Source: Scytalidium lignicola (taxonomy: Eukaryota; Ascomycota; Leotiomycetes). Taken from it: DNA of 50,647 bases. Location: the NCBI GenBank assembly GCA_002812745.2, contig NCSJ02000314.1:1-50647 (forward strand). Reading direction: 5' to 3'. The first letter of the stretch is position 1. Every line of letters starts with the position of its first letter. Shown here one piece after another: positions 19,090-40,210 of the stretch. The position numbers and the translations under genes were made by a program. Below the pieces are notes generated by a model, which had not been told where the DNA came from, did no database searches, and saw nothing but the letters and a program-made list of their open reading frames with translations.

Positions 19090-19096
19090 CGGCCCG
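19090..19096. promoter_or_regulatory. CGGNCCG site, 170 bp upstream of MFS gene
   Basis: CGGCCCG within CCCGGCCCGG. An inverted CGG triplet with one-base spacing, typical of Zn2Cys6 regulators. Member of a nine-copy set in front of all six host genes. Confidence 0.65.
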
Positions 19097-19214
19097 GCAC
19101 TTATATTTGCTTGTTGTATTGTCATGAAGGTATTTACAACCCTTAAGACTTGGAAAGCAACTATTAACTTCATTACCTTGCTATCAAAACAAAGAGACTT
19201 AAGCTGTCAATATC

Positions 19215-19221
19215 CGGCCCG
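19215..19221. promoter_or_regulatory. CGGNCCG site, 295 bp upstream of MFS gene
   Basis: CGGCCCG within TCCGGCCCGG, between the divergent MFS and YrdC genes. It could serve both. Confidence 0.65.
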
Positions 19222-19309
19222 GTATGTTATATCTTGATCTGGGGTCCCCGCAATGCGGTGGGAGAGGCGAGTGGAGGGACAAACTGAGAAACCTAGCTCA
19301 TCTGGTGCT

Positions 19310-19316
19310 CGGGCCG
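19310..19316. promoter_or_regulatory. CGGNCCG site, 184 bp upstream of YrdC gene
   Basis: CGGGCCG. The reverse strand gives CCCGGCCCGA, matching the extended consensus YCCGGCCCGR. Confidence 0.65.
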
Positions 19317-19493
19317 GGCTCAGAATAGCCTCATAAGTCTTGTAAACTTACGGTTATATGTGAAACCTGTGGCCAATCCCTATACTAGTGGACAGATATT
19401 TCCGCACAAGGCTACCTAGTCTTAGAGTTATTACAATTCCCTGTATTGTCCGAAGTTTATCAAATCCTATCCCTCCCTTAACCGTAAGGCAAC

Positions 19494-20328
19494 ATGGGTC
19501 CTCCAAAATATCAAAGAGGATGCTCGACGGGTGTTTGACGTTATCAAGAATGGTGGACTGGCAGTCGTTCCCATTACCGTGGGATATACAATGATGGGTT
19601 GCAGCGCCGAGGCCCTAGAAAGGATGTTCATTGCCAAGCGCCGTGGAGCCCAAAAACGCCATGCCATGGGAGGCAGTTACGATCTTCACAAGGAGATACA
19701 TATAATGTCACCATTGCATGCTGAGATTGTACGCAGCCTGGTTGTAGACTTCGATCTCCCTCTAGGAATCATAGCCAAGTACAAGCCTGATCACCCAGTC
19801 GTCAAGGGTATTGATCCAGCGACATTAGAAGCGACCACTGCAAACAACACCTTGTTCATGTTGATTAATGCAGGCGCTCTTCAAGATGAGATCACAAAGT
19901 TAACTATGGCAGCCGGTCTGCCGATCTTGGGAAGCTCGGCCAATCTAAGCGGGACAGGTAAATTATTTTGTCTTTGTTTTATTCTTCAGTCAGGGGTAAG
20001 AAATGTGCTGACTAGTTTGGCAGGTGCCAAATTTCAATTCGAGGATGTGAATCGTGAGATCTTGGACGTGGCGGATATTACACTGGATTATGGATTGATC
20101 AAATTCGTACACTCTCCCAGGACTAGTTCGGCTATGTTAGATTTTAGCGGGCCAAACGTCGAGGTTGTGCGCATTGGTGTTGGCTACGAGATTATTCGAG
20201 ATCATATTAAGCGCTTTTGGAATATCGATCTTCCTGCGGATCCGGGAAAGGAGAAGTGCCCATCAGGACATCTCAAGCTCCCTCCACCACCCTTAAAGAA
20301 GCTAGAGCGATTGATGGCGCAGTTGTAG
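19494..20328 (+). CDS. YrdC/Sua5-domain protein
   Basis: YrdC-fold protein of the Sua5/YciO/YrdC family. Sua5 makes threonylcarbamoyl-AMP for tRNA t6A, but this fungal paralogue type, lacking a Sua5 C-terminal domain, has no assigned reaction that I know of. About 255 residues. The family signatures are a Lys/Arg-rich pocket (AKRRGAQKRH) and SSANLSGTG (S-x-N). One intron, 19958-20023 (66 bp, GTAAAT...GGCAG with a CTGAC branch), happens to be in frame. The start is uncertain: the ATG at 19494 gives MGPPKYQ but reaches the main frame only if one A of the AAA at 19513-19515 is extra. The main frame itself is open from 19426 without an ATG. It is divergently transcribed from the transporter. The C-terminus ends in a basic Pro/Leu stretch. 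Confidence 0.82.
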
Positions 20329-20595
20329 GAGACATATTCAATCATCGGACTTGCGACGGCCAAGCCTTTGGTGGAATAACCTAACCACGAGCTCCTGGAT
20401 AAACTTCATATATGGCCATTGATTGTTGCACAACGAGCATAGCACATAGCTAGCCAAGTTTGCTGCGGCATGTCTTACATTTCATTCATATGATATTTTC
20501 CAGCTATGCTTAGACTTTTAGATAGAGAGATAATGAATCCAATACACTTGTTCATCACCAAACCCGGTCAAACCTTTACAAAAACGGAGGGGTTA
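20329..20595. other. Intergenic, 3' of YrdC gene
   Basis: No coding frame or known element seen. It ends at the TA target site of the MITE beginning at 20596. Confidence 0.5.
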
Positions 20596-20744
20596 CAGCT
20601 CAACGGGGGTAGAACGCGTAAGTTGATCGGGGTAGAAGTAATTAACCCGAAAAAGATTTGCTTACGCTAAGCATATGTTGTGATTACTGTACAGTATAGT
20701 TATCAACAATTAATGCTTGTTAACTTAACGAGTAAGGTCTTGTA

Positions 20745-20790
20745 CACGTGATCCCGGCAACTTTCCCACTCCGGTAAATTTCCCACTTTT
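20745..20790. repeat. Left terminal inverted repeat of the pogo element
   Basis: Pairs with 22851-22896 with two transition mismatches. ACCACACTTC-type sequence is also shared slightly farther in. Confidence 0.9.
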
Positions 20791-20997
20791 GGATTTAACA
20801 ACACCACACTTCCAAATATTATAACTCAACAACCAAAGCTTAATTTGAATTGAAATTGATAAATTTGCTATATTAAAGCATGTAGATTACAATGCATGCC
20901 TTAAATATTAGATATTATGTAATTGTGTAGCATAATTGCCCCTCTAATAAAAATTGCCTCCGTACCTTATCTATTCAAATTACACCATAATACTCAC

Positions 20998-22818
20998 TTA
21001 AGAAGCCTTTGGTGTAGCTCTCTTGCGTGTAACAGCCTTCTTAGCCTTCCTTTGAGTGGCCAGGAGCTGCCTTTCCAAGGCTTTCTGCATTTGCTCTTCC
21101 TTCCTGGCTTGTTTTTTGAGTAAAGCTTCCTTGGCCTTTTGCTCTTTGACTAGTTGTCATTCCAGTTGCTTTTTAACCTTCTTTGCTTCTAATTACTCGT
21201 GTTTATTCTTTACAACTAGCCTTTTTGCTATTGTAGCTTTCTTCTTTGCCTTTTCCTGTGCTTATGTTTGGGCTAATAAGGCTTTAGCTTTCAAGACTTC
21301 CTCTGTACTGAACTATTAAGCTTTATCTACTTGTTCCTTACAAAGGTTAAGACGTTGAAAGTGTGCATTCTTCTTCTTTTGTATCTTCAGAGCTCTGACT
21401 AAGCCTCTATTTGAGTGTCAGGTAATATTAAGCTTTGCTGAAAGCTTATAATTAGCATTCATAATATATTGTAGCTTAGTAGAGGAAGGACTTTGTATAT
21501 AAGACTTTTATATATGCTTAATACCTTTATAGGTTATAAGAGTCTTTAAGATTATTTAGCTTGTTATAAGAGGTGTATTTGGCTTTAGAAACACCTTTTC
21601 AAGAATAGTAAAAGGCTTAATTAGTTATATGCTAATCTTTTCAAATGCTAAAGTAATATTCTTTATTATAAAACTTTATAGTCAAGAAGGCCAAAACATA
21701 CTCTAAAATAGAGTCTTTAACATGGAAACCCTTCTAATTCCATCTTGTATTAACTTGTTCTGTTCCTTTGAATAAGCTAAAGATAATAGGAGAAATAACC
21801 TAACATTTAAAGGTTGTAAATGATAAGTAGTATAAGGTAAAAGAACTATTATAATTATTTTATAACTGTGTGCAAAATCAATAAACCTTATATTAACATG
21901 ATTAGAATGCTCATTAATAATAAGTAAACAATATCTCTTATTAACTTGAGCTTTAGTTTGAAGCTTAAATACTTGCTTTAACCATTAATAGCCTAAAGTA
22001 TTATAACTTTACCAATTTATAAAAGAGGTGAAAAATGCTTTATCACCAAGTTTTAAGTCTTATACCTAATTAGTTCAAAGGTCTTCTGATTCCCCTTGAT
22101 ATATAAAGCTTAGTAAAAGAGTTTTTCTGGTTGTTAAGATATATATTAGTATTGTAAGGAATTCTCTACTCTCATCTTGTGCATTGTGAACTTTACCGGC
22201 TTTAAGAGCTTTGACAGATATAATTCTTTTAGAAGATTTTATAAAGCTTAATAAAAACCCCTTCTTATTGATATTGTATATGTTTTTAGGCTTAATACAA
22301 TGTTTTTCAATGCTGGAGGATAACTATATAAGCTTTGGTTAATAATTGACTATTAAGACTTATAATAACTTATAACATATAAAATAATACTTAACTAGTT
22401 GATAAAAATGCTCAAATATAAGCTTATATTCGGATTTGACTTTATGATAATCTATATTCCTCAAATAAATATTACTAATCTCTTCCTTGTGACATTTTAC
22501 AAATTGCCCTACCTAGTTCTTCCTTACAAGCCCTTGTATGATCTTCTCTGCCATATTATGAACAATCTGACTGGTTAGTGGTATTCCTCGGTTTGTGAGA
22601 TAGTTGATATGCTTGATTAAAACACTCTCTTGAGCGTTATTAAGACGTTGCTTATGTGTAGACATAGCAGTCTTCATAGAGGTGTGTTGACCTTTATATT
22701 GCTTTGCAAGAGTTGTGCGCTCAAGGCCATATATTTTAGCTGTAGCACTAAAATTAGGCTTCTTTTGCGATTTCAAATCTGCAATTGCTTCTTGAATTGA
22801 AGCTTCGTTGACCTTCAT
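20998..22818 (-). pseudogene. Pogo-type transposase, inactivated
   Basis: Starts with MKVNEASIQEAIADLKSQ (ATG at 22818), a psq-type helix-turn-helix with the ATAKIYGLERTTL recognition region, followed by a CENP-B-like part (NAQESVLIKHINYL, NRGIPLTSQIV). The first stop (near 22515) replaces the Trp expected before the CHKEEIS..YLRNIDYHK segment, a TGG to TAG change. The DDE core (21500-22450) is AT-rich and unreadable. The C-terminal tail (20998-21400) is a Lys/Ala/Gln-rich coil (KKQARKEEQMQKALERQ) with a few RIP-type stops. No function is expected. Confidence 0.85.
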
Positions 22819-22850
22819 ATTGGTGGTTGAAGTGTGGTGGTCAGGGGCAA

Positions 22851-22896
22851 AAAAGTGGGAAATTTGCCGGGGTGGGAAAGTTGCCGGGATCACGTG
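22851..22896. repeat. Right terminal inverted repeat of the pogo element
   Basis: Partner of 20745-20790. Followed by TA at 22897-22898. Confidence 0.9.
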
Positions 22897-22898
22897 TA

Positions 22899-22975
22899 AC
22901 TTATAAAGCTTATAACCTGTAACTTATAGCCTGTAAAGCCTATAGTTTATAGCTTGCAAAGCTTGTAGCTTATAA
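22899..22975. repeat. Short degenerate repeats of CTTATAACCTGTAA type
   Basis: About six tandem imperfect units of 10-13 bp (cttataacctgtaa, cttatagcctgtaa, gcctatagtttatag, gcttgcaaagcttgtag) directly right of the pogo element, inside the outer MITE. Confidence 0.6.
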
Positions 22976-23186
22976 CTTGTTCATCATATGTTAAGCATAT
23001 GTTAGCTATATATATTATATTAATTATATCGTGATTTAAATATCAAAATCAATATTAATTACACATATACTTAGCATATGCTCAATTATCGGATTAATTC
23101 TCTGCCCCTATTGAACTTGACCAAAAGTTGCTCTGTACCTCCGAGGTTTACCCGAACGGCACGCGTTCTACCAGCGTTGAACTGTA

Positions 23187-23380
23187 GCCCGCAAAAACAG
23201 GGACACATAAACTTGGGTAAATTGCAGCCTCAATATTAAGACAAGAAGCGGAGATAATTTTGTTTACTTCAAGCTCTTGAGAACTGTATAACTATTTAGT
23301 ACTAGCATTTCAGCTTAAATGATCATCAAGTCACTCATCCTAAAAATATAACATAAAAAAATGGTTATATATGTTCCAGC
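23187..23380. other. Spacer with no gene
   Basis: Between the MITE and the hairpin. Nothing recognised. Confidence 0.4.
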
Positions 23381-23467
23381 CGATACACCAACTCCGCCGG
23401 TTGGCCAACTGTCTAGGCGATACACCAATTTGACAGTTGGTGTATCGTCTAGCCCATACACCAACTG
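23381..23467. repeat. Cluster of GATACACCAACT repeats forming alternative hairpins
   Basis: CGATACACCAACT at 23381, CGATACACCAA at 23418 with its exact complement TTGGTGTATCG at 23437-23447, and CATACACCAACTG at 23455. A second stem, CCAACTGTC with GACAGTTGG (about 23405-23413 and 23432-23440), competes with the first. It may be a terminus of the integrase element that follows. No matching copy was found near 25560. Confidence 0.7.
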
Positions 23468-23699
23468 AATCAACTTTACCCCATAGTAGCAGTGTAGCTT
23501 TATGTGTAACAAGTTTCTCTTATTTTGCAACCTTCAATTGAATTGTTCTTTATCCAATATAATATCAATTGAATTGATTAACCCTTTTCCTAATGATATA
23601 CACTTTGCCTTTCAAGAATATATATATAACAAAAGTTATATTAACAAAGAACAGATTAATCCAAAGTACTAACAAAGAATGTATGTGTTTTTGGACAAT

Positions 23700-25558
23700 C
23701 CAAGCCTCAAATCAGAGGATCGAACAGATACCAACTTAAAACACAAAGCACTTACTTAATTTAAGCTCAAGGACTGTTAACTATATTGATTACTTGATTT
23801 ACACCATTCAGAATTAAGATATGCTGTTTAAGATAATGAAGTATTTGATATTATTGTTCAAGAGTATATCAAACTTCTTCATGCAAGATAAGATAAAGTA
23901 TAATTAGTAATTGATCAAAATTATTATGGAATTAAACATGATAATGTTGAATAAGTACTTAAAAGATGCAAAAACTGTTCTTTGAATAGGTTATTAACTA
24001 TTAAAGTTCCTCTTGAACTTATTATTACTAAAAGAGCTTGAAAACACATTTAAGTGAACTTGATTAACATAAAGCATAAACTGTTTAACTAGTATAAATG
24101 GATATTACATATTAAGGATTATTTTACTAAATATTCACAATTATATCTACTTAAAAGTAAAGAATCAATTCTAATTGTATAAGCATTTACTTAATTTATT
24201 ATAACATTTTTACTTCTTAAAATTATACAATATAACAATAACAAGGAGTTCAAAGGTGCTTTTCTTATTATATTATGTAAATATAATATTCAAATAATCA
24301 ATGAAAAGCCTTAAACACCTTAAACTCAAGGCCTTGTTGAGTAAGCAAATGAAGTGGTTAAAACCAAAATCAAAGATTAAAAAGTAAATAATAATTCATC
24401 TGAATAGACTAATGGTTTGGTAAAGGTTACTCTTGTAATTAATACTCAAAAACACTTAACAATTAATTGTATACTTGTTGAATTGTTATTCAGAGATTAT
24501 AACACTTATATTAACTAGTTGAATAATCAAAAACACAAAGATCTTATAATTGAAGTACTTTAAGAAGATCTTAATAAAGCTTTAATTTTTAAGAGTAATT
24601 TAAAATCTAACCTACTAATTAATCTACAATTACTAACTTTAGGTTATTCAAGAGTTGATATTGATATTCAATCACAGTTATATTCTCAAGTTACTATGCA
24701 AATTAGCTCTGAAAGTAGCTCAGAGATTAATGTACGAATCACTTCATTAATCAAGAACTCTCTTGAACGGTAACATGATACTGAAACTACTATTATAACT
24801 ATAGTTATTACAACTACAATTATTACAATTACAGTTATTACAATTACAACAACTACAGTTACAACAACTACAACTACAATGATTACAACTACAACGACTA
24901 CAGTTATAACGATTACAATTACAATTATTACAACTACAGTTACTATAGCAATTCAATCAACAGATCCAGTAATCCAAAAAGCTTAGCAATCAACACAAAA
25001 TGCAAGGATTAGGATGGTCGAAAAGTACTTNAAAAAAGCATGATATTCAACACTTTGAGATTGGAGATATTATATCAGTTAAGATTTTAAGGGAAGATAG
25101 AATAGTTACTGATAATCGACGATTATATGCTCAAATATTAGATAAGCCATACCCTCATAGATATCGAATTATTACTTAATCAAGAATCATTAATCGTTTG
25201 ATGTCAACTAAAGATTTAAATGTAGTTGACCAAAGCCTTTGGCCAGATATTAACATTCCAGAAACCACCAAACAAGTCACATTGACTTTGGCAGCTAAGG
25301 AGGCATCTACAAGTCAGTGAATTAGTATATCATGTTAGTGTAAAGGTCAGTGTAGTACTAAAAGATGTCATTGTTTCAAGGAAGGAAAGGATTGTACAGT
25401 ACATTACCATAAAGATGAGCATAACTGTAGAAGGTTGTCAAGGCTAGCTATTCGCACTGAACAAGCCTTAATTGAACTACCTGAAAGCTCCAATAACAAT
25501 AGGAGAAAGCGAGCAAGGGCAAATACTAAGGGTAATGGACATGGTTTCAGGATATGAG
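23700..25558 (+). pseudogene. Integrase-like transposon gene with C-terminal CXC domain (KRBA2-like)
   Basis: The frame is readable with RIP-type stops. Zinc-finger-like ending of the N-terminal part: VLKRCKNCSLNR (about 23945). Integrase (rve) core: INIKHKLF..YKWILHIKDYFTKYSQLY, IIQYNNNKEFKG, GLVEQANEVVKTKI. The first two catalytic Asp are Asn here (G-to-A) and the Glu is retained. Further down come HDIQHFEIGDII, RYRIIT and NRLMSTKDL. The C-terminal CXC-type cysteine cluster (CKGQCSTKRCHCFKEGKDC, then a His/Cys pair, 25340-25430) and a basic RRKRARA tail are almost undamaged. The layout resembles KRAB-A domain-containing protein 2-like integrases. No LTRs are seen, so a cut-and-paste (Ginger-like) element is likely but not proven. 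Confidence 0.7.
24775..24956. repeat. (ACNATT)n-type simple repeat inside the integrase gene
   Basis: About 180 bp of TTACAACTACAATTATTACA-like trinucleotide pairs. In the integrase frame it codes a Thr/Ile/Val tract linking the integrase core to the GDII segment. On the reverse strand it gives a spurious Cys/Asn-rich frame. Confidence 0.85.
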
Positions 25559-25956
25559 TGATAGGCCCACCAACGGTGACATCGTCTTTCCCCACACTGA
25601 ATATTCCTAGTCGCCGGATCTGATAACCAATCCTCTTCCATGCTGATTGTCTGTAGGCGCCGTTTTTATGCCTTGTACACCGGACCGAAAAGGTCGGAAG
25701 GCGGGGGCGGGCAAGGACGGCAGTTCATTCAATCCAGAACCAGCAATTATTCAGCTTTGAAGTGGTTTAGATATCAGCTTACAACTCTCTCAAAGACCCG
25801 GATGGCCATTTCCCGGTAATATATTTAACATATCTACTTTGTAGCGTAGTAACGTCGTGCCACAGTCACTACTAAGAATTCTGTGAGGTTACACGAACAA
25901 TTCAGCTCTAAAAACTCCCTTCACTTTATTATCAAACTTGATCCGCATACTCTACA
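25559..25956. other. Intergenic, promoter side of hydrolase gene
   Basis: GC rises sharply at about 25560, marking the edge of the gene island. It contains the CGGACCG site at 25681. No other frame is supported. Confidence 0.5.
25681..25687. promoter_or_regulatory. CGGNCCG site, 276 bp upstream of hydrolase gene
   Basis: CGGACCG within ACCGGACCGA. A further CGG half-site lies 8 bases downstream. Confidence 0.6.
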
Positions 25957-26919
25957 ATGGATTCCCTACCACCCCTTGGTCGGGGGACTGCAGAAGTCCT
26001 TGTCCCAACCTATAAGATATATGGCGAGTTGCTTCAGCAACCGTCCAATTCCTCAGCCATCCTCGGAAAAGAATATCAAACATATTCATATGGTTCTCAT
26101 GAGCGTCAGAAATTGGATCTCTACATCCCTTCATCCTCAGTTCCTATGCCAGCTGCCGGAATTTCTCGCCCCATCTTTGTGTTCTTTTATGGTGGTGGAC
26201 TAGTAACAGGCGACCGAATCCTCTCTAATTTCCCAGGAGGGCTAGTTTACCGCAACATTGGGTATTTTTTCTCAGAAGTACTTGGGTTCGAGACTATCAT
26301 TGCTGACTACCGACTCTTGGGCAAGGGAGGAAAGGCACCAAGTGGTCGTGAGGACGTCGATGGAGTGGTCCAATGGATCAAAGAGAGATATGGGCTCCCG
26401 GATAAACCTCGAGATTTATTTATCATGGCTACTTCCGCAGGAGGTTACTTATTGGCCACCTGGCCGTTCAACAGTGATTTACATCAAAAGAATACAGCCA
26501 TATTCGATGGTAAAAGCAGAGTCCACCTACGCGGTATTATCTTTCTAGGAACCCCATTTGATTTGAACGTTGCAGCAAAGATATCGGAAGAGTATTACGG
26601 TAGTGTGGAACAAGCCAGGGCCGATCAACCCCTCGTAAGAATTTCAAAGATTCAAGAGGGGCTGAATCCAGAAGATTTGAGCAAATGGCCTCGAATCTTA
26701 GTCCTTGTGAGTGAGCTAGATTCCGAAGATTTTATAGTTGAAGCAGGAAAGAGGCTTGTCAATGAGTGGGGAAGATCTGGGGCAAAGATAGAATTTGCAA
26801 TCTTGGAAGGTCACAATCATATTAGTCCCCCAGTAGATTTGGGCAGTGACATTGAGAGAAAGGAAGCTTGGGGATTTGGAGTGGGAGAATGGATCAAATC
26901 TGGATTATTTAGTGTATAG
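25957..26919 (+). CDS. Alpha/beta-hydrolase fold protein
   Basis: Single exon, 320 residues, intact. An esterase/lipase-like alpha/beta-hydrolase (BD-FAE/esterase type): after a YGSHERQKLDLYIP strand comes FFYGGGLVTGDR, the place of the oxyanion HGGG, here with Tyr for His. DYRLLGKGGKAPSGREDVDG is the usual conserved loop. MATSAGGYLLA holds the nucleophile Ser but lacks the first Gly of G-x-S-x-G. The Asp is in ELDSEDF and the His in GHNHISPP. No signal peptide, so probably cytosolic. It lies tail-to-tail with the aconitase-like gene. It is the only cluster gene without a lesion. The substrate is unknown. Confidence 0.88.
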   Translation: MDSLPPLGRGTAEVLVPTYKIYGELLQQPSNSSAILGKEYQTYSYGSHERQKLDLYIPSSSVPMPAAGISRPIFVFFYGGGLVTGDRILSNFPGGLVYRNIGYFFSEVLGFETIIADYRLLGKGGKAPSGREDVDGVVQWIKERYGLPDKPRDLFIMATSAGGYLLATWPFNSDLHQKNTAIFDGKSRVHLRGIIFLGTPFDLNVAAKISEEYYGSVEQARADQPLVRISKIQEGLNPEDLSKWPRILVLVSELDSEDFIVEAGKRLVNEWGRSGAKIEFAILEGHNHISPPVDLGSDIERKEAWGFGVGEWIKSGLFSV

Positions 26920-27194: not shown

Positions 27195-30144
27195 TCACCA
27201 CTCTAATTTCGTCTCAATTGGCCGTTCTAAGCCTCCAATCTCATTGAAGGCTTGCGACTGAACTTCTGTTCTAGCGTCACTTGCAGTCAACTGTTCCCAA
27301 ATCGATCTTCCAAACTTCTTATAAGCATTGACCAGCCCCTGATTGATTGTTAATTTCCACTCCATATCTGCCATTTGGAAATAGAATGTTGTATGGCCAT
27401 CAACTGTCACCCTCCGCTCTGGAACATTAATTTAAATCGTTTCATTGTCTTTTGCTACTTCATAGAACTTATCATCGGCGATAGTAAAGCCTAATAGCCC
27501 CAAACTGGGCTGATTTCGGCTATAGATGAATGCAAATGAGCGCGCAATCACGCATTTGACGCCGCATCTTTTTTCATTGTCAATTATGATTCTAGGATAG
27601 TTTATCCCGGAGTCCTACAATTATCTGACACCAGAACGGAGAAGACAAGAAGAAATTGACTAACCTTTGAGTGCTAATACGGCTTGTTCTCGAGAAGACC
27701 CACAGCCAAACGATGATCCCGCAACAAGAACTTGTTGACCATTTTTCACATTTTCCCTAAAATTTGGGTGCGTATTTTCTAAGCAGTGAGTACCTAGTTC
27801 TTCATCGCTAAGATTTTCAACCAGGTAATGAGATGGTGCCATCTAAGAATATTGCATCCCAATTAGTACGATTACCGATGCGATTATAACTGTTGTAAAT
27901 AGCATTGCTTAGACTCACCGCATCAGTGTCAATAAAGTCTCCTAGTGTTATGATTTTGCTGTTAACGATTAAGGGAACTGACATGCCATTGCCCTGCTGT
28001 GAGTCTGGCTTTATAACTGAATCCGGCTTGCTTAACTTCGATTCTGCAAGTGGTCTTTTAGCGAGCCCAAGTGATGGCTCCACATAATCAACAGGCCCCA
28101 AGGAAGATTGTTCGAAATATTTAGTATATCTCTTGAAAAGGCCTTGGTCTATCTTTTCCAGAAATGGCCGTGGATCAGTGAGTCTCATTCCAAATGAAGA
28201 TGAAGCAACGGTGGCTGCTGAAGTGATATTGGCGAACGACCCTAATGAAAAGGATATCGGTCAACTTTTAGTTCAAAGAATGGTCTAAACAGTGAAGACG
28301 ATAAAAAGCCACCTACCAGGGCCCATTCTATCCCGATAATTTCGATTCTGAGAGCTGAGCCAGGTTTCTCCAGGCTTTGCCTGATCTGCGGACATTGCAA
28401 TACAGTAACTACATCCTGGGACGCCTCTAGTAAAAGCAGCAGCTTCGTAAACGCTCAGGAGGCCTAGGGACTCTAGCTTCTCTACAATTGGAAGGGACCC
28501 TGCTACCATGTGCCTTTTTCCCGGTTTTATAGGAATGCCTTCTTCAAGACCTATTTGCAGCACAAGAGCTGCAAGGATTGGCTCTTCTTCAGTTGTAGTA
28601 CAAGAACCAATAAACACTCCATCGAACTCAAGAGCCGGCTTCTCTGAGATTGCCACTACATTGTCAGGGGAAGGATGAATAGCAATCGTGGACGTCACAT
28701 TGGATAAGTCTATGTCGAATATGCCAGCATATTCAGCACCATCGTCTGGTTGGAAATAGACTACATGCGAGCGATTAGTCTTCAGCCGCCTTTTGCTAAT
28801 GTAATCCCTAGTTATTTCGTCAGGGACAAATATGCCAGTGATGGCACCGAATTCCTGAGTGATGGATAATTAGTGTTGAGCACAAGAAGTATATATACAG
28901 CACAATATATATCACAGGGGCCTTACAGTGCACATATTACAGATCGCAAACCTGGCATCGATTGAAAGCCACTTTGCTCCAGGTCCTGAGAATTCCACCA
29001 CCCTACTTGCAGCAACGGTATTTCGCTTTAGTTCCTTTAGAATATAGAGGATCACATCTTTACCGGTCATACCGAACGTGGGCTTTCCAATAAACCGTAT
29101 AAAGATCGACTCGGGGACTTTGAACCATGTTTCTCCGGTTACCAAGGGCATAATTACATCTGCTGCTCCAAGGCCTATAGCTAAACAACTTACTGCGCCA
29201 GCAGAACAAGTATGAGAATCGGCTCCAATTGCAACCATTCCAGGCTGGGCACGCTCACGGACGAACTCAGTATGCATAATAGTATAGTTCATTCCTTGGT
29301 ATTCAGTCATTTTGTAGTCGTGTTTTGCCTTTTCAGATGCAGTAACAAGAGCTCTGACCTTAGGACGGTCTGTAACTCGTGGATCAACAACATGATCTCC
29401 TGCAATCCAGAAACGGTCGGTTCGCCAGATCGTATTTTCACCCAGCTCGTCAAGTCTTGCTTTCATAATCTACTCAGAATGGATAAAACCATAATTAGTA
29501 AATCACAGTGCCTGACACGTTCGCAAGCTTTTGTTGAATGATTAGAAGAATTCACTCTGCCTACTTACCACCTACTGACCCTCAGACGTTATAACCCAGT
29601 CAACAGCAATAGAAATTGTGTCACCCACTTTCAAACCCTCAACTGGCACCGTTGACGTGGAATGGTGAGCGAATATCTTCTGTGTCAAGTTCATCGGCTT
29701 GGTAGATGCTGACTTGGTGGTGCTAAGTGTGCTGGGGGTGATGGCTTGTGACCTCTCTTGTGAGATTAGCGCTTCTAGGTAGGCATCGACCAAGAATAAG
29801 ATGTTCTCATAGTCTGAACTCAACAGGCCAGTTGCATCCTGGTCCAGCCCCAGGCCTCCGAAAGTCTTTTTGACCAAGCATTTGGTGACTACATTCTCGA
29901 GTGCTTCTGCTTCAGCTGCCTTGCCAGTGGTAGCTAGAGCAGTATCTAATTGTCGAAGGGTTTGGAAGAGGTGTGGAGGACCAGATAATACAATGGACTC
30001 CAAAGCATTATCAAGACCAGCAACAGCAATTTTATGACCACGGACTGAATTTAACAGATCGATGACATTCTGGTAGAAATCCTGGCTTGGTAAATTCTGA
30101 CCCAGGATGTCTGGAAACGAAACAAGAATATTCCCTATTGCCAT
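27195..30144 (-). pseudogene. Aconitase/isopropylmalate-isomerase-like protein, with in-frame stops
   Basis: Fe-S hydro-lyase of the aconitase superfamily, about 840 residues, large and swivel domains in one chain as in fungal Leu1. Exons: 30144-29569, 29469-28927, 28854-28317, 28241-27919, 27842-27665 and a last one to 27195. Cluster cysteines: SHTCSAG (about C280), FIGSCTT (C458) and PGCSYC (C521/C524). Other motifs: NMCT|EFGAITGIFVPDE across an intron, GPGSFANIT, and SSFGCGSSREQAVLALKG in the swivel domain. About 190 residues of exon 1 precede the catalytic part and match nothing I recognise. Lesions: TAG at 29572-29574 where Trp is expected, TAA at 27432-27434 (likely from CAA), and an exon 5/6 junction that cannot be joined in frame. 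Substrate unknown: an isomerase of 2-alkylmalate- or citrate-like acids is likely. Confidence 0.85.
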
Positions 30145-30600
30145 GGTTTTCAAAATGCTGCGATTTGGAGTCAAAACTAGCTCAGGTTAACTGGAATCAG
30201 AATCCTCAATGACACGGCTGACAAGAATGTCTTCAAAAGAAAAAAAAAGAAAAACTCTCTGATCGTGGAATCATGGCACATGCTCATAATTTTTGTTAAC
30301 ACGCATCACTGGGGATGTTGCAATCTAGCAAATGAGTATGTCGGTCCGACAACTTTTTTTTACAATCATACTCTATATTCGGCTATTCCTAATTGGGTGC
30401 CTGTAGAGACTCCTCGAGCTACAGTACACGGTTTTCTACACTAATATTCCACGATCCTGCCAGTGGCAAAAGAATCAACAGTATAAGGATGACAGAAGGA
30501 AATGAAGAAACAACTCAAAAGCTCGAAACCTGAAATAACTCAAACCCATACACCTATAACTCCGTAGTGTAGTTGACCGTCTCCCTGTATTATACTACAC
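30145..30600. other. Aconitase-like gene promoter and LINE 3' edge
   Basis: Contains CGGTCCG at 30342 and a T8 run at 30353-30360 which, read on the minus strand, could be a short LINE poly(A) tail. The exact LINE edge is not fixed: I found no duplicated target sequence. Confidence 0.45.
30342..30348. promoter_or_regulatory. CGGNCCG site, 198 bp upstream of aconitase-like gene
   Basis: CGGTCCG inside an 11-bp palindrome, GTCGGTCCGAC. Confidence 0.65.
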
Positions 30601-30681
30601 GCTTTGAGCAATTTTACTCTCCTCAGGGTCCATCCCTTAATTTGGTGTCTGTTTTTACAAAAGGTAAGTGTACTTCTCGCA

Positions 30682-31770: not shown

Positions 31771-33900
31771 CTCCTTTTCCTTACACTAAACCATTGCCCT
31801 TATCTGTCCTTCCTTGCCACTCTTATTAGTATATATCCACATCTGGTTTGGATTCTTGTTTTTATGTAGCTTATTATGTACTTCTACAACTACTTCATCA
31901 TTCTTTGCAATCTATACAATTAATGGTTGTTACTAAGGGAGGATTGCATAGTATATGTATAGCTTTAGTAGGCTAATCTTTGACTTGAGCTTGTCCTCTA
32001 GTTTCACTTCTAGTCTTTGGAGAGTAGATTGTCTTTTGGACAGTAAGTGTATACTAGCTTGACAGACGATTTTCTTGGTTATTAGTGTTTTGTATATTGG
32101 ACTAGTTATAATTCTGGTTGTAGACATGATTGATCACTTTATTAGAACTTAATTTATGCTTATGATATAAGTTTCCTTCTTTAGTACAGTTAATGTTGTA
32201 ATGTAAAAAGCCTTTGTAGTTACATATAAGGTGTTCTTTTAGAGTATGTTCAATGTTTTTAGTATATCTTTTCTTCAAGTCTTTTCACTTGTGTAATCCT
32301 TAAGGATATACTAAGCCAAGCATGTATATGTTATGATCAATAGAATTATTACATTATATAACTTTAAGATCTTTGTTCTTATTATTTCTCATATTAAGCT
32401 TATAATTACTTGTAGAATAGTTATTACCTTGGTTGCTTACTCTTTGATGTGTTTTATATACACTTCTTATCTTAGGTCAAGGTTGAAAATTACTCTTAGA
32501 TATCTTATAACCTTTTTAGGTTGGATTACCTTAAGAAGTTGATTACTTCCTCTTAGAGTTGAAATAGTCAATAGCTTGTCAAGGTCTTCTTTGTTGAAAT
32601 CCTTGTACCTTCGGTTATACTTGTGGACAAAGTATATTAATTCAAATTTGTCTATTGTAAACATAAAAGTATATCTCCTAGTTTATTCTTTATACTTTTA
32701 AGCTACTCTTGTTAATGTAATAATCGTCTTTATAATGTCCTTACCCTTAGTTAATATCCTTATATTGTTGATATACTCTTCTTTTATAATTATCACAAAT
32801 CTTAACCTTTTTGTCTTTACTAGGTTTATATTGTAAAACAAGTATAAAATGAGTAATAAAGGTAATCCTTGAGGGATACTTGTATTTATTGTAAATTCTA
32901 GTCTTATGCCCTTTACAAGTCTAATTTTTAACTTCTAGTTTTATAAGTAGCTGGCCATCCAATTTACAAGCTAAAATAATAAGCTTCTCTTTTTTATATT
33001 ATAGAGTAATCTTATATAAGATACATTGTTAAAGGCCTTTGATATGTCCAGAAGTAATAAGTTAACCACTTTCTTCTTTCTTCATATTAAGTAAATCCTT
33101 TCTATGAACATATAGATAACATGCTTACAAGACATTAGCTTCTTACCCTCAGCATACTGAATTAGCAGTATATAATACCTCTTAACTAGATATTACATAT
33201 ATTTTGCTAGAATTGTATCCATTACCTTCTTAATGGTATTCATAAGTATGATAAGCTTGTATGTTTTAAGCTTTGAATAGTTTAACTTACTTAGTTTGCA
33301 CAAGATTATTATAACTGACTTCTTAAAGTGCTTAAGGTAATATCCAAGCCTAAATGACATGTTGAATATTTGTATTAATGTTAAAACAATCATCTTAACT
33401 ATTACTTTGAGCATCTTATTTAAGATCTCATCTCCCCTTAGCACTTTGTCTAATAACATGTATCTCAGAGCCTCTGTTACCTCTTACTCTATGATTTTAA
33501 GCTAGTTCTCCCTTAATTAAGGGTATCTGAATCCTTCAATATCCTCTAAATTTGCCTTTAATAGCTTTAAGAAGTGCACTTCTCGAAATACTTTGTATTT
33601 GCCTTGTAAGTCCTTTGCTATGGTTTTGTTTTTCCTTTGTATGTTAAAGGTATAAGCTACTCTAAGTGCCTCCTGGTTTTTAGCCTATTTAGCCAGTCTT
33701 TAAAGGCTTACTTCATCCTTAACATTTAAGACTTAATCTTTGTAGAATTATTTATTACATTTGGATATAACCTTATCTTTTTTAGCTTTGACTTCTTAGA
33801 AAGCCTTAAAATTCTCCTTTGTTAAATGTCTTTACTTCCTTTTGTTTATATTCTTTAAATTCTTGATAATATTCTTTATTTTACTAATAAAGCTTAACCT
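31771..33900 (-). pseudogene. LINE reverse transcriptase region
   Basis: 33193-33459 covers the fingers and first palm: a GDEILNKMLK segment, IFNMSFRLGYYLKHFKKS, a LSKLNYSKLKTYKLIILMN segment matching the K(P)gK.dYskp.ayRPI.LLN block of Tad LINEs, then TIKKVMDTILAKYM. The FADD box region (about 32800-32900) is too RIP-mutated to read. Confidence 0.8.
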
Positions 33901-35000
33901 TGAGAACTGTATAATTTTAACCTTTAAGACTACTTCTTTTATACCCTTGTTCAAGGCTTCTAAGATTTTAGTTATTATATAGTTAAGTTCTATAAGTAAG
34001 ATNAAAGTCTTGAATTGTTAAGGGTTACTCCTAGATTATTATAACTAGTAGTTTGATGTTTAATTGCTTAAAGGCTTTCTTGTATACTACTAAGGGAGGG
34101 TTAAGCTTAATGTTGATCTTTATAGTTATTAAGTAGTAATCAGATACATGATCAAGCCTCTTGTTTACCTTGTAAGTGTAAATCTTATCTTGAATCTTTT
34201 GTGTAATTTATACTAAGTTTATATATATTCTTTTTCTCCTTTGATTTTAGTTAGCATTATTAGCTAGCCTAGTAATTATACTTAATTCTAACGTTAATTT
34301 TAGTCTGTTCTCTTTTATTAATAGTATTAAGAAGTTTGTTTAGTTGTTATCCTTTTCTGTGAATAACTTGTCTTTAAATTATATTTTATAATATAAGTTA
34401 AAATTATTTATTATCATTTGTAAGTTGTTTTTGTATTTAACCAGTGCTTAGTCTAAGTATAAAAGTGTATTACTAGTTAGTAACTCTTCATATTCTTTAT
34501 TTGCGAACCTTGTCTGATCTTCCTTTAGGCTTGGTCCTTTATTATGAAGGTTGTAAATATTATGGATGGAAATCTCCTTGCTTATTCCTTTTATCTTGAC
34601 TTTGATGTAAGTTATAAGAATGTTATATCCTTTACTTGTAATCCTAATAGTTTCTTTATTGATTTTAGTTATATTTATAAGAAAGCAAACGTATGAACAT
34701 TCTCTTATGATTTGTATATACACTTAGTACTTGTCTAAGTATAAGTTATATATTTTCTAAGACTTCTTCTTTGAATTTAAGTATGATTTCTGAATTGTAA
34801 TAACATTGTATTCTTTAACAATTCTGTTTATTAACAGGGTTATTATAACATTATATGATTTCTAAACATTGTATTATAACATTGATATTTGTTATAATTG
34901 TTAATCTATTATTTAATAAACAAGTGTTCACTTATTTCTCCTGGATTAAACCTTTATGAATAGTATCTTAATAGGAAGAGGATAAAGGCTTTAGAGTAAC
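33901..35000 (-). pseudogene. LINE endonuclease region (degraded)
   Basis: 34448-34723 is open and matches the start of an APE-type endonuclease by position: strand-rich sequence with VKIKGISKEISIHNIYN followed by a LLYLD-type segment. Catalytic residues cannot be assigned with confidence. Confidence 0.5.
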
Positions 35001-35253
35001 ATTTAAAAGTAACAACTAAAGTAATAATATAATAACAATTACATTAAGCTCAACAACTTTCAACTAGGATAAACTATTCATAAAGGTCTAATCCAGGAGA
35101 AATAAGTGAACACTTGTCTATTAAATACTTTGTTAAGCTTTTAATTTCTATTTTATCCTAGTTGAAAGTTGTTGAGCTTAATGTAATTGTTATTATATTA
35201 TTACTTTAGTTGTTACTTTTAAATGTTACTCTAAAGCCTTTATCCTCTTCCTA
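34921..35253. repeat. Interleaved inverted repeats A-B-A'-B' in the LINE
   Basis: A (34921-34963) is inverted at A' (35074-35116) with one mismatch. B (34972-35073, 102 bp) is inverted without mismatch at B' (35152-35253). A' directly abuts B. The spacers are 8 and 35 bp. In otherwise RIP-degraded DNA such identity means a late duplication/inversion or an assembly fold-back. Confidence 0.95.
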
Positions 35254-35263
35254 GATTTGCTAG

Positions 35264-37082
35264 ATGCCCTCTGAAAGCTTAATAACCTCTTTTAGAATCT
35301 CTGTTATTTCCCTCTCTATAAATGCCTTGTGCTTCTTTCCAGTTATCATTGTTAATACTCTAATAATTTATTTATCTTGTATAATCGTTTTTATAATCTT
35401 GACTTATTGTCTAAAGACAATAACCATATTCTTATTCTTAAGTACTTTTATACACTTACTAATAACTTTTACCTAGTGAGTTCTCTTTGTTTTAAGAGTA
35501 TTAAGCTATAATAAAGGCTTAAGGATTTTACTTAATATCTAGATTAATGTTTTAAGAGCTTAAGTAATTTAACTCTCTTGTTATAATTCTTTTATTCTAT
35601 TAACTTAAACTCTTTTACTTTCTTTTCCTACTAACTTAGTTAACTTTGTTAGTTGTTTATGTAAGTTGACCTTGGATACTCTTAAAGTTATATTTACAAC
35701 TAAGAAATAAAGGTTCTCTANTAAGGTGTCTTTTTGCCNTTTACTATCTTTTTGATAATTCTTTTCTTATGATCATAACCTTGTGATTATGTTAAATAAC
35801 AACCTTTGCAAAGTAAGTATTTAAATTTAATATAATCTCTCTTGTCTAGATGTTTACTAGTTTTGTAGTCTATTAACAAATAGTATCCACAAATAAGGGT
35901 TTTGTTATATACAATTATAATATAGTTGTATTTGTAACATCTATAACATTGTACAACCTAACATTCCTTATTATAACATTGAGTTCTCTTCTTGTAACTA
36001 TCTTATAATAAGCCCCTCATTTTAATCAAGGTATTTACATCCTCTAATCAAGTAAACTTGATAACTATAACATTTACTAGTTTATCCATAAGCCTTCTTA
36101 ACCATTATACTCTCTCAATCTCCGTCTCCTCCATTTTTATATTAAGTCTTTGTATCTTGGCAATAATACTAACCTAGTCATTTATATCAATTGTTGTAAT
36201 CTTAATACTAAAGACTATTACCTTATAAGTCAAGATCATCACTTTAGTACTTTCTCTCATCATACCCTCCTATTCCTTCTGGTTGTGCAAGAGCTTGTTT
36301 ATAGTCAGGCTATCTCTGGCATATGCATAAATGTCTCCAGATGGTAGTATCTGTGCTATGCTTATCCACTGATTTATGCTTGACGTAGTAGTCCAGACAT
36401 TATTGCTAACATTTTGGCTTATGCTCAAGGCCTTGGATATAGCCTTATTGAGGAGCTTGGTAAGCTTTACTGCAAGGTCTTTCTGGCCTCTGAAGGTCTT
36501 AATTGTAGTTTTATCTGTAGACTTAATGTATATTTCCTTGGTTCTAGGCATAATTCAGCTTCTTGTAACTGTGGTTATGGTTGTAGCTTTGGTGTGTAAG
36601 GATATATTACCACCTCCGTTAGAGGATATGATACTAGCTTATGATGATTCTGTTGACTGTGGTGATCCACTCCTGGTAGAGCAGCCCTGTATGAAGCTTG
36701 CCATCTTGTTGAATTGGTCTCTGAGCTCCCTGAAATCCTGTCGCATCTCGTCCAGCTTGTCGTTCGTCGTGTCAAGTATCGCATGTCCGCCATGTCCGTC
36801 ACCATCATCCTTCAAGCCCCTCAGGAACGATTTCACGGCCCTCAGGAAGTCCAAGGCGTTGTCGGATGGTATGGGACGGGCCTTACGGTCCTTATAACCC
36901 TCTGTAGCTGGTTTCCGACCGACATATTCGATCAGGGCTTCGGTTTCCTGGAGGAGGTAGGTTCGTTGTTCGTTCAGGTCTTTCCCCTTTTTCCTTACTT
37001 TTGGGCAGCCATGGTCCACGAGGGGCTCCTTACCACCGGGCGGCATGGAGCTGACCTCGAGGAATCGATTTACGGTGTCCAA
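35264..37082 (-). pseudogene. LINE ORF1 (Gag-like)
   Basis: The N-terminal part, 36639-37082, is open and clean (MDTVNRFLEVSSMPPGG, charged helical stretch, LDEMRQDFRELRDQFNKM coil). 36270-36551 reads PRTKEIYIKSTDKTTI, then KLTKLLNKAISKAL, QWISIAQILPSGDIYAYA, typical of Tad-type ORF1. Farther on (about 35880-35960) a CCHC knuckle remnant, CYRCYKYNYIIIVYN, has its last positions altered. Frame changes and stops separate the parts. Confidence 0.75.
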
Positions 37083-37660
37083 TTGCTGGTGGGTAGCGTG
37101 GTTGTCGAGTTATTTCCAAAAAGTCGATTTGGGCGCGCGGAGATGTTTTCCCTTTCAGTCCGACAACGCATCTCGTTTCTATTGTACCCCCCGCATAGGG
37201 AATAGAGCGAGAGCAAAATGGACCCATACCTCGGCATCAGTATCCCAGGTCTGTTCTCAAAAGGCATACAATGACTAATCTGCTGTAAAATATTTTATAG
37301 AGTTTGTCCTATCGGATAGTAAAAATTGGGCTTAATCCTGGTTGACATAGATCTGACACCTACGGTATTCTTATTTTTATTCTTATTTAAATTTTTGATT
37401 CACTAAACCTAGTTGTTTAAAAATTATTTTATTACACCTAGTGCTTCCCTGAAAAGAGGCTTCATACTGCTTAACAGGATCGGCAAAGACCCCCTGGAGG
37501 AGATAGGGAACAATAAAAGGAACACAAATAGATGTCGCCATAATTCCACTTAAGTCCAAATCACTCTCCAGATTTGTGATAGCTGTTGAACAAATCACTC
37601 AACCTAGCTAGTCATTCAATAGTTAGTTATTGTTAATAATTATCTAAGACCTTGATGCTC

Positions 37661-37667
37661 CGGCCCG
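37661..37667. promoter_or_regulatory. CGGNCCG site, 204 bp upstream of ThDP gene
   Basis: CGGCCCG within TCCGGCCCGA, full match to the extended consensus. Confidence 0.7.
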
Positions 37668-37692
37668 AGAACGCAGTCACTAGTAATAACCC

Positions 37693-37699
37693 CGGCCCG
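37693..37699. promoter_or_regulatory. CGGNCCG site, 172 bp upstream of ThDP gene
   Basis: CGGCCCG within CCCGGCCCGC, 32 bp (about three helix turns) from the previous site. Confidence 0.7.
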
Positions 37700-37864
37700 C
37701 CACTTAGAAACAAGCAGGATTCTTGATCATCGATTTCCAATAAGATCTCTAATATCAAATAACTTAAATTAAAATAAATAAAATCCACTCTGATCCTTCT
37801 GTATCTAACCATCTTAAAGGGATATTCTAGATCTATCTCTCACACTCGTCTACCTTATTTCTCA

Positions 37865-39961
37865 ATGTCTACGGCCAAAGTTCCTTTGGCCTTCTATCTC
37901 TGGAAGAGGCTTGCTCAGCTAGGAATAGAGCACATCTTCGGAGTCCCTGGGGATTTTAATTGCATGTCCTTCCACTCTTCCCCACTTTCCTATGTCCAAA
38001 TCTAATATCTAAACTAACGAGAAGCCAGCTTGAAATTCAGTAACGATCATCGATCATTTGTATGATGTTCCTCAATTGAAGGGGGTAGGTGTTTGCAATG
38101 AGCTCAATGGGGCATATGCTGCGGACGGTTATACACGTATCAAAGGAAGCCCAGCTGCTCTCCTAACTACCTACGCAGTAGGTGAGCTTTCAGCCATCAA
38201 TGGAATTGCTGGTGCCTACGCTGAACACGCTGGTATGATCCATATTGTTGGAATGCCGGCAAGAGAGAGTAAGAAGTTACCAAACCCGTTTCTATAGTAC
38301 TGTGAATTGTCCAATCATAGTCTAGCTACTCTATTAACTTTTGCCCTGTAAAGAACAGGCAAAGAGAATATTACTCCACCACACCCTTGAACCCAACATG
38401 GACCAAACAATTTATGTCGGAATGAGTGGGCCGGTTCGCAAAACATACACAGCATTGGACGACGAGAGAACTATGGCCCAAGAAATTGACCGCGTGATAA
38501 CTACATGCGTTCAAAGTCGATTGCCAGTCTATATCTATGTCCCTACAGATGTCGTAGCTATTCCCCTAGATGCTTTTCGTCTAGCGACACCATTAGATCT
38601 CGCTGTACGAAATAAGAATCGAGCTATTGAGGACTTGGTAGTAAAGAAAATTCTCCAATGTATCAAAGATTCTAAGAGACCTGCCATCTTAGTAGACGTC
38701 TTAGCTGATCGACATGGTGGGAAAGATCTGGTGAGAAAGCTGGTTGACCTGACTCATTTTCCTACATACGGTACTTGTTTGTCAAAGGGGGTTATAGAAG
38801 AGAACAGTCCTTACTTCAACGGTATATATAGCGGAAAGGGTGAGTCCCGTTATGCTCTCAGTCTTCATTTCTAGTAGAATCAGTGCGCTTAGAGAGGTAC
38901 TGAGCTATATTTAGTCTCCTTCCCGGGAATCAGAGAAGCAGTTGAGACATCCGACTTGGTTCTCAATATCGGCCCGCTCCTATCGGATTCTAACACCGGA
39001 GGATTTACGAGGAACATATCAGAGGACAGACTTGTGTATTTAGGACACGAGTTTTGTCGAATTGGAGGGGAAGAGTTTGAAAATATTCACTTTTTGCCCA
39101 TATTACGTCGTCTAGTAGAGAAACTGGAAAAGAATCCAGTTGATTATAACACTCCACGCGAGCTATTCTGGAATCGAATTGAGGTCTGCTTGCCCCTCAA
39201 AATAAGCGTATATTAGAGCATATATCTGATATATATTTTCAAACACCACTACTTGATGCGTCCAGTTCTGGCCGAATCACCCAAGCATACATCTGGCAGC
39301 GAATCGGAAGGTTCCTGAAACCTAATGATATTGTATTTGTGGAATGTGGAACAGCAGGGTTTGGAATGGAGGACGTGACACTCCCTTCCAACACTAGTTT
39401 TCATACCCAGATCTTTTTCTCGTCAATTGGATTTTCCGTTGGGGCAGCATTTGGAGCTGCTATTGCAGCTAGGGAGCTGAACTCACCTGGACGGGTGATT
39501 CTTATCGTTGGTGATGGATCGCTTCAGATGACGGTTCAGGAGATCAGCTCTTTTATTCGCTATGGCTTCAAGAATATTTGTATTTTTGTAATCAATAACG
39601 ACGGATATTCTATTGAACGTGCAATCCATGGTCAACACCAAGGTTATAACGACATTAATGTACTCTGGGATTATCAGCGAATGTTAGAATTCTTTGGCGC
39701 AAACTCAACTACAGAAATCAAAGGTCAGAGTGTTCGCTGCACGGATATCGAGACAGTCGATAAGGTATTGCTGAGCAAAGAATTTAATACTAATGACTCT
39801 GTTAAGGCAAGTTTCCTATTATCTTTATACATAAGAGTGTCAAAATAACACGGGTGCAGGTCTACGAAATCCTAATGGATAAGCTCGACTACCCTTGGCG
39901 ATTGTCGAAACAACTTGAACTCTCAAGTGGCCACTCACCAGAAACTAAACCTAAGTTGTAG
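37865..39961 (+). CDS. Pyruvate-decarboxylase-like ThDP enzyme (one frameshift)
   Basis: Thiamine-diphosphate 2-oxo-acid decarboxylase, cytosolic, giving an aldehyde and CO2. Exons: 37865-37961, 38041-38268, 38354-38839, 38915-39806 and 39860-39961. With one C restored in the CCCC at 39193-39196 they give 601 residues, the usual PDC length. Motifs: start [30 protein letters not shown], catalytic Glu in [13 protein letters not shown] (E53), HH pair (117-118) in LLHHTLEPN, and the ThDP/Mg motif from GDGS (470) to INN (499). Two introns start with GC: 37962 (GCATGT) and 39807 (AAG|GCAAGT, the standard GC-AG form). It could act on a keto acid made by the neighbouring isomerase pathway rather than on pyruvate. 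The frameshift may be a sequencing error. Confidence 0.88.
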
Positions 39962-40183
39962 CTATTATAGATTTTATCTAGGTTTCTTTTGTTTTAAGTA
40001 CTTCTAAATAGTAGGTCTAAATATGACTGGTCCCATGGCATACTTATGTTAATAACTCTCACTCCTGGGTCCTCTAACCAAAGGATGCGACATGGTATTA
40101 GGCATTCAAAACAACGGGGCATAACTAATTTGTCATGATGCATCATTGTGATACCAAACCACCATGAAAATTAATAATACAGT

Positions 40184-40190
40184 CGGGCCG
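40184..40190. promoter_or_regulatory. CGGNCCG site, 199 bp upstream of HSL-type hydrolase gene
   Basis: CGGGCCG. The reverse strand reads TCCGGCCCGA, identical over ten bases to the site at 37661. Confidence 0.7.
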
Positions 40191-40203
40191 GATCAGGAAG
40201 ATT

Positions 40204-40210
40204 CGGTCCG
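40204..40210. promoter_or_regulatory. CGGNCCG site, 179 bp upstream of HSL-type hydrolase gene
   Basis: CGGTCCG within TTCGGTCCGG, 20 bp from the previous site. Confidence 0.65.

Follow-up and report, generated by a model that had tools for sequence, protein, structure and literature searches.

A CGG-N-CCG promoter site points to a putative Zn2Cys6-type regulon of accessory 2-oxo-acid genes in Scytalidium lignicola

Several described fungal systems bear on the sequence CGGNCCG (CGG-N-CCG), which recurs ahead of six genes on one contig of the Scytalidium lignicola genome and is examined here as a candidate regulatory site. PrnA of Aspergillus nidulans, a Zn2Cys6 regulator of proline catabolism, binds CCGG-N-CCGG (excerpts of PMC5983819 and PMC12941744), while the Zn2Cys6 regulator of leucine biosynthesis, Leu3/LeuB, binds an everted CCG-N4-CGG (excerpts of PMC6221358 and PMC8262921). 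The site of CLR-1 of Neurospora is CGGN5CGGNCCG (excerpts of PMC5468973, PMC6498484 and PMC12911045). In Fusarium, 93 of the 369 promoter copies of motif M18, CGGnCCG, are conserved across four genomes, and the part of PMC2853525 that presents the motif lists no functional category for it. On the side of metabolism, the homotyrosine genes of echinocandin producers encode isopropylmalate synthase-, aconitase- and isopropylmalate dehydrogenase-like enzymes that lengthen a 2-oxo acid (excerpt of PMC7778625). An earlier note on this DNA had called the one-base gap unusual and a possible mark of a specific regulator; that part falls away, as PrnA, CLR-1 and M18 already have such a gap, although it is rare in print judging by a literature search for the motif, which found six papers.

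The window, which is the whole of contig C238 (50,647 bases; the genome comprises 46.85 Mb in 664 contigs), contains CGGNCCG exactly 11 times. The nine upstream copies listed in the earlier note, together with those at 1806 and, in a coding exon, 38970, were all verified, and the nine do fall inside five promoter intervals belonging to six genes. The sites are:

19090..19096, no strand assigned: CGGNCCG site CCCGGCCCGG in the divergent promoter of the major facilitator superfamily (MFS) and YrdC-like genes, 170 bp before the MFS start
19215..19221, no strand assigned: CGGNCCG site TCCGGCCCGG in the MFS/YrdC divergent promoter
19310..19316, no strand assigned: CGGNCCG site (reverse CCCGGCCCGA) in the MFS/YrdC divergent promoter
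25681..25687, no strand assigned: CGGNCCG site ACCGGACCGA in the hydrolase promoter, 276 bp before the ATG
30342..30348, no strand assigned: CGGNCCG site (reverse GTCGGACCGA) in the promoter of the isomerase-like gene, 198 bp before the ATG
37661..37667, no strand assigned: CGGNCCG site TCCGGCCCGA in the promoter of the thiamine diphosphate (ThDP) enzyme gene, 204 bp before the ATG, first of a pair
37693..37699, no strand assigned: CGGNCCG site CCCGGCCCGC in the ThDP promoter, 172 bp before the ATG, second of the pair
40184..40190, no strand assigned: CGGNCCG site (reverse TCCGGCCCGA) in the promoter of the hormone-sensitive lipase (HSL)-type hydrolase gene, first of a pair
40204..40210, no strand assigned: CGGNCCG site (reverse GCCGGACCGA) in the HSL promoter, second of the pair

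The six genes that they precede are:

17243..18920, minus strand: MFS sugar-transporter-like gene (Pfam Sugar_tr)
19494..20328, plus strand: YrdC/Sua5-like gene (B7463_g10649, recorded as partial; Pfam PF01300; P0122 68% identical)
25957..26919, plus strand: alpha/beta-hydrolase-like gene, a single open frame with weak BD-FAE and Abhydrolase_3 matches just below the Pfam cut-off
27195..30144, minus strand: 3-isopropylmalate dehydratase/aconitase-like gene (B7463_g10652), HtyD-related, called isomerase-like here
37865..39960, plus strand: pyruvate-decarboxylase-like ThDP gene (B7463_g10654)
40383..41579, plus strand: HSL-type alpha/beta hydrolase gene (Pfam Abhydrolase_3), start uncertain between 40383 and 40465

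Two sites lie 184 and 279 bp from the YrdC ATG at 19494, and those of the HSL-type hydrolase lie 281 and 261 bp before its ATG, or 199 and 179 bp from the alternative candidate. Two pairs have their members within 40 bases of each other (37661/37693 and 40184/40204), and the ten bases said to be common to 37661 and the reversed 40184 are indeed identical. The longer form YCCGGCCCGR, proposed to fit most sites, fits five of the nine, which is a bare majority. Read on the strand that puts C or A at the centre, eight of the nine sites match CCGG[CA]CCG, and A comes next in six.

Chance predicts far fewer copies. The expectation for the whole window was 0.24 from whole-window dinucleotide shuffles, 2.3 from local G+C alone and 1.11 on average, with a largest value of 5, in 300 block-wise Markov simulations in which 1-kb blocks kept their own dinucleotide make-up. 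The five promoter intervals (2587 bp in total, reaching roughly 500 bp upstream of each start and delimited once the motif had been found) hold nine sites, with at least one in each, where the genome rate predicts 0.16 (P = 1.7e-13). Because the intervals were drawn post hoc and the genome rate averages in AT-rich repeats, we also allowed for a five-fold higher local rate, under which the excess still gave P = 1.9e-7. When all triplet pairs, inverted or direct, were compared at gaps of 0 to 12, CGG-N-CCG came out on top (34.6, against 13.1 for the best of 200 simulated sets) and was the only G+C-rich pair present in all five intervals. The runner-up, direct CCG-N2-CCG with 10 matches in four intervals, mostly reads the same sites differently, and the two promoter matches to everted CCG-N3-CGG are the two fully symmetrical sites. 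Thirteen other 3-N-3 control words of the same composition had at most two promoter matches each, and across CGG-Nk-CCG with k from 0 to 12 the promoters gave nine matches at k = 1 and at most one at any other k. The idea that the word might be equally common in random DNA of this genome, which would have told against a shared site, was pursued in part: its density is 3.5 per kb in the promoters, against 0.062 per kb genome-wide (2916 copies in 46.85 Mb) and 0.048 per kb (four copies in 83.6 kb) in a set of 20 comparison loci, some of them overlapping, that were chosen regardless of the motif from contigs other than C238, C578 and C399.

The site recurs before paralogous genes on two other contigs, where the closest paralogues of the window isomerase-like and decarboxylase-like genes are found (on C578 and C399, respectively) and where four promoters carry eight sites. 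C578 (13.4 kb) was reached through similarity to the isomerase-like protein (identities of 66 and 79% in two exons). Its isomerase-like paralogue has one CGGNCCG 146 bp before the first matched codon, and its isopropylmalate-dehydrogenase-like gene has three, at a 31-bp spacing, 238-300 bp upstream. C399 was reached independently of protein similarity, through a genome scan for paired sites alone. Here an isopropylmalate-dehydrogenase-like gene has sites at 150, 161 and 191 bp upstream, and the decarboxylase-like gene divergent from it has one at 167 bp. Copies marked by sites resemble one another more than they resemble most of the unmarked copies: the ThDP proteins of the window and C399 share 60-61% identity, against 56-58% for the unmarked C639, and the dehydrogenases of C578 and C399 share 58 and 74% on two stretches, with the unmarked C50 next.

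We surveyed up to 600 bp upstream of 21 genes outside the window, namely 12 dehydrogenase-family, three decarboxylase-like, four isomerase-like and two proline dehydrogenase genes, taking the first matched exon as the 5' end, which in some cases is perhaps not the true start. Of the 19 members of the three enzyme families, only the four genes on C578 and C399 carry a site; the other 15 do not. With the proline dehydrogenases included, 5 of 21 genes have a site, and nine sites compare with 0.78 expected; since C399 and C578 were partly chosen by what was sought, the P values of this survey are guides and not proofs. Dehydrogenase-family loci on C70 and C650, decarboxylase-like loci on C488 and C37, weaker ThDP matches on C95 and C266, more distant aconitase-family loci and synthase-family loci other than that on C64 fell outside the survey.

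The leading candidate for the regulator also lies on C578. A Zn2Cys6 gene stands divergent to the isomerase-like paralogue and shares its intergenic region; the zinc-cluster sequence is split by an intron, with matches to Pfam Zn_clus (5.9e-7) and Fungal_trans (2.8e-6). The nearest PDB chain by sequence is yeast LEU3, a weak match (E 0.012), followed by PPR1 and PUT3 (both about 0.1). By its position and this weak likeness to LEU3, the gene is the best candidate for the factor that reads CGG-N-CCG, an assignment that we make tentatively and, provided that a shared Zn2Cys6 factor is at work, rate at somewhat under an even chance. A further Zn2Cys6 gene with an upstream site, on C6, was set aside as a single coincidence of roughly the size expected by chance (an estimate).

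Set beside the described systems, the window shares with PrnA the inverted CGG triplets, the one-base gap and the placement of sites in the intergenic DNA of a metabolic cluster that includes a divergent promoter (excerpt of PMC5983819). It differs in that the second CCGG is absent from seven of the nine sites, with CCGG on both sides only at 19090 and 19215, and in that its genes are not proline genes. The CLR-1 site contains the CGGNCCG core but needs a third CGG five bases off, and the three-part CGGN5CGGNCCG occurs neither in the window nor in the stretches of C399 and C578 that were read. M18 is the identical word, although in the excerpt of PMC2853525 it is a statistical motif with no named factor or target set. 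The likeness to Leu3/LeuB lies in the targets, isopropylmalate isomerase and dehydrogenase genes (excerpt of PMC6221358), and in the C578 zinc cluster being weakly nearest to LEU3. As in the homotyrosine set, the enzymes are accessory and of the leucine type, the window and C578 each having an isomerase and C578 and C399 each a dehydrogenase; unlike that set, the window has a decarboxylase-like gene, and no peptide synthetase or transaminase was noticed among its open frames. No isopropylmalate-dehydrogenase-like gene was among the matches listed for the window. A literature search for clusters of YrdC and aconitase genes gave four papers, none of which contains the word YrdC; searches for a clustered dehydrogenase and decarboxylase and for a kynurenine cluster listed no match, and PMC8880518 gives no site motif.

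Because it stands before all six window genes and before related keto-acid enzyme genes elsewhere, the site is probably the landing place of a common switch of a known family. We consider it quite likely that a dimeric Zn2Cys6 factor binds CGG-N-CCG and co-activates accessory genes of 2-oxo-acid elongation and decarboxylation. What the sequence shows is where the sites lie, that they exceed chance and that they recur; from this we infer protein binding, co-expression, the direction of control and a pathway product, as follows. Each zinc cluster of the dimer would contact one CGG of the inverted repeat across the one-base gap, at about 150-300 bp before the start, an arrangement that fits the anatomy of the sites and the PrnA precedent. 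The factor would then jointly switch on the isomerase-like, decarboxylase-like, transporter, hydrolase and YrdC-like genes of the window, along with the paralogues on C578 and C399. By analogy with echinocandin homotyrosine, the leucine-type enzymes would likely lengthen a 2-oxo acid, which the ThDP enzyme would then decarboxylate.

Several observations weigh against a dedicated regulon of this kind. Within the enzyme families themselves, the isomerase-like genes on C64, C436 and C648 have no CGGNCCG within 600 bp upstream. Flanking bases also differ between the loci, with C preceding the core in eight of nine window sites but in two of eight on C578 and C399, and A following it in six of nine but in one of eight; two further C578 sites, at 6011 and 6348, lie inside the Zn2Cys6 factor gene itself. 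The Leu3/LeuB site is everted with four-base spacing whereas that of the window is inverted with a one-base gap, and CCG-N4-CGG does not occur in the window. None of the 150 Zn2Cys6 candidates that were scored, out of 496, lies on C238, and a six-frame search of the window for the zinc-cluster cysteine pattern gave one low-complexity match only; both negatives are weak, as the C578 factor was also missed. Because these searches were exon- or frame-wise, they could have overlooked a window gene whose zinc cluster is split. Across the genome, the reversed pattern outnumbers CGGNCCG (5439 copies to 2916), the longer YCCGGNCCGR is likewise scarcer than its reversed form (195/199 against 306/303), and pairs of sites are no commoner than reversed pairs (10/10 against 16/10, 10/8 against 19/22 and 2/5 against 6/11). 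The excess is therefore local, without general enrichment.

Sites at other loci weigh in the same direction. The paired-site scans (gap up to 30) needed one arm written out in full; they therefore reached an estimated three quarters of the ordered pairs, and they found 14 non-repeat places. Four of these are the two window pairs, C399 and C578, and the other ten fall outside the keto-acid gene set (C1, C38, C44 twice, C159, C233, C270, C457, C613 and C629). The C1 pair lies in the promoter of an amidohydrolase gene (Amidohydro_2) and C1 has further sites; the C44 sites lie about 0.5 kb before another Zn2Cys6 gene; and at C177:195816 a CGGCCCGG site stands 179 bp before a proline dehydrogenase frame of 510 residues. 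The core thus serves more than one gene set, and since CGGNCCG is found at genes outside the pathway, several factors may share it.

This spread beyond the keto-acid genes would follow if a broad regulator, for example a PrnA orthologue, governed many catabolic genes and those of the window were ordinary members of its regulon with no pathway-specific factor. PrnA binds the same geometry (excerpt of PMC5983819), and the C177 site, the C1 promoters and the ten outside places would all fit. PrnA, however, needs CCGG on both sides, with which two of nine window sites comply; only one of the two proline dehydrogenase loci has a site, in a single copy, the C443 locus having none in 3.7 kb; and several tight sites per promoter are seen before the elongation and decarboxylation paralogues. 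We regard a broad regulator as improbable. The difference in flanks between the window and C578/C399, and the Zn2Cys6 genes near sites on C578, C44 and C6 (no more than about 1 kb off) and on C1 (at a distance of 2-3 kb), could instead reflect several Zn2Cys6 factors with the same core preference, so that the six genes would have the core in common without answering to a single regulator. The flank is uniform within the window, with the preceding C at all but one site, and one factor for the six genes therefore fits; we think a plurality of factors there very unlikely. Least credible of all is an artefact of base composition. It is true that the genes sit in islands of 0.38-0.47 G+C amid DNA mostly at 0.19-0.34, and such islands in AT-rich, repeat-laden DNA would be expected to hold CpG-rich words. 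Words of the same composition and other spacings are nevertheless not enriched, the block-wise simulations never reach the observed count and the site recurs at the paralogues. Base composition as the cause was accordingly rejected on the simulations, the control words and the spacing series.

A further alternative, compatible with a shared regulon, is that the window locus is a decaying duplicate with inherited sites and that the working pathway lies elsewhere. The MFS frame has an in-frame stop at 17431-17433, just ahead of where its C-terminus is expected, and another stands near the C-terminus of the isomerase-like frame, at about 27432-27434; with two of its genes so affected, the locus may be partly decayed, which also counts against an intact regulon here. 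The ThDP exon junction near 39184 is doubtful, and the conserved start of the YrdC-like frame is not preceded by an in-frame ATG, the ATG at 19494 being out of frame with the conserved part so that the start is uncertain. Most of each protein is, on the other hand, open and conserved, and we hold decay of the locus to be possible but doubtful. Ion Torrent reads tend to get the length of base runs wrong. As the genome was sequenced by this method (47.7 Mb, G+C 41.7%; PMC6256649), the frame anomalies may be technical or may reflect real decay. Two other suspected defects were dismissed, since a supposed frameshift in the isomerase-like gene is an intron according to the C578 paralogue and the public gene model, and a supposed frame break at the second ThDP intron is fitted by a GT-AG intron. 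By eye, two ThDP introns, at about 37961 and 39807, appear to use GC donor sites.

Taken with these points, co-regulation of the six window genes is well supported by sequence evidence, but not as a closed cluster. The earlier note had proposed one co-regulated cluster; its shared site of Zn2Cys6 type stands, beyond chance and echoed at paralogues, whereas the set is not confined to the window, extending to C578 and C399, and the core is also found at unrelated genes. Nor is the whole cluster visibly conserved in relatives: among the best 120 matches to each protein, those of the aconitase-like and decarboxylase-like proteins, which need not be orthologues, never evidently share a contig in the 12 other species named in both listings. 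In Rhizodiscina, the YrdC and one aconitase are apparently on a shared contig, with the gene order not visible.

Among the same best 120 matches, the window isomerase-like protein shares 50% identity with one that bears the name HtyD, and the ThDP protein 63% with a Capronia protein. The public model of the isomerase-like gene falls below the curated cut-off in the best 25 of 26 NCBIfam rows. A search of 5.8 billion proteins listed 28 relatives of the YrdC-like protein, its own public record included, and 23 of these 28 have PF01300, from which we take it to belong to a narrow family; relatives named include Rhizodiscina, two Cladophialophora, Exophiala and Rostrohypoxylon. An open frame at 22513-22923 has a Tc5-transposase DNA-binding-domain match just under the cut-off, and the contig ends about 9 kb past the last gene.

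The copy at 1806, as the earlier note had it, lies within a repeated element whose relatives are found on C240, C405, C544 and C577; it falls in a repeat-rich island at 1000-2300. Relatives on these four contigs and on C281 and C350 each have two nearby CGGNCCG sites, and repeat-borne paired copies were found on C240, C405, C544, C577, C281, C287 and C350. As for the remaining paired places, that on C38 lies beyond a short-chain dehydrogenase frame, those on C159 and C270 are in open frames, and no nameable gene was seen at C457, C613, C629 or the second C44 place. By eye, the neighbours of the amidohydrolase gene at C1 736-4410 resemble a 3-hydroxyanthranilate dioxygenase and a DUF1338 protein, a tryptophan/kynurenine-like catabolic set whose promoters have CGGNCCG; a Zn2Cys6 match lies at 8622. 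The stretches read of C44 57207-70404 contain eight CGGNCCG, close to genes for a Zn2Cys6 protein and an MFS protein.

On C64 (6001-17373), isomerase-, isopropylmalate-synthase- and dehydrogenase-like genes are adjacent and their promoters are without CGGNCCG. The synthase-like gene has none across the 8 kb examined, and the dehydrogenase gene has two copies inside its coding part. C64 looks like a complete accessory leucine-type set under other control. In the dehydrogenase-family upstream regions of the survey, the Leu3-type CCG-N4-CGG occurs at 5 of 12 loci (three on C112, and on C327, C328, C50 and C399), some of the 12 perhaps being isocitrate dehydrogenases, and CGG-N-CCG at two (C578 and C399); only C399 has both, overlapping. 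It is conceivable, though unlikely, that accessory leucine-pathway genes moved from Leu3/LeuB control to a duplicated, Leu3-related factor, that of C578, which reads the inverted CGG-N-CCG in place of the everted CCG-N4-CGG.

Our data nonetheless favor a real, putative Zn2Cys6-type regulon, which probably comprises accessory genes for lengthening and decarboxylating 2-oxo acids. From a motif noticed by eye in a single contig, promoters of related function could be predicted at other loci of the genome, and a target set and a candidate factor can now be put forward for a core motif that is conserved in Fusarium but, in the excerpt of PMC2853525, has no assigned function. If the derivation from Leu3 is true, the locus would make visible a switch of half-site geometry, in both spacing and orientation, after duplication of a gene and a pathway.

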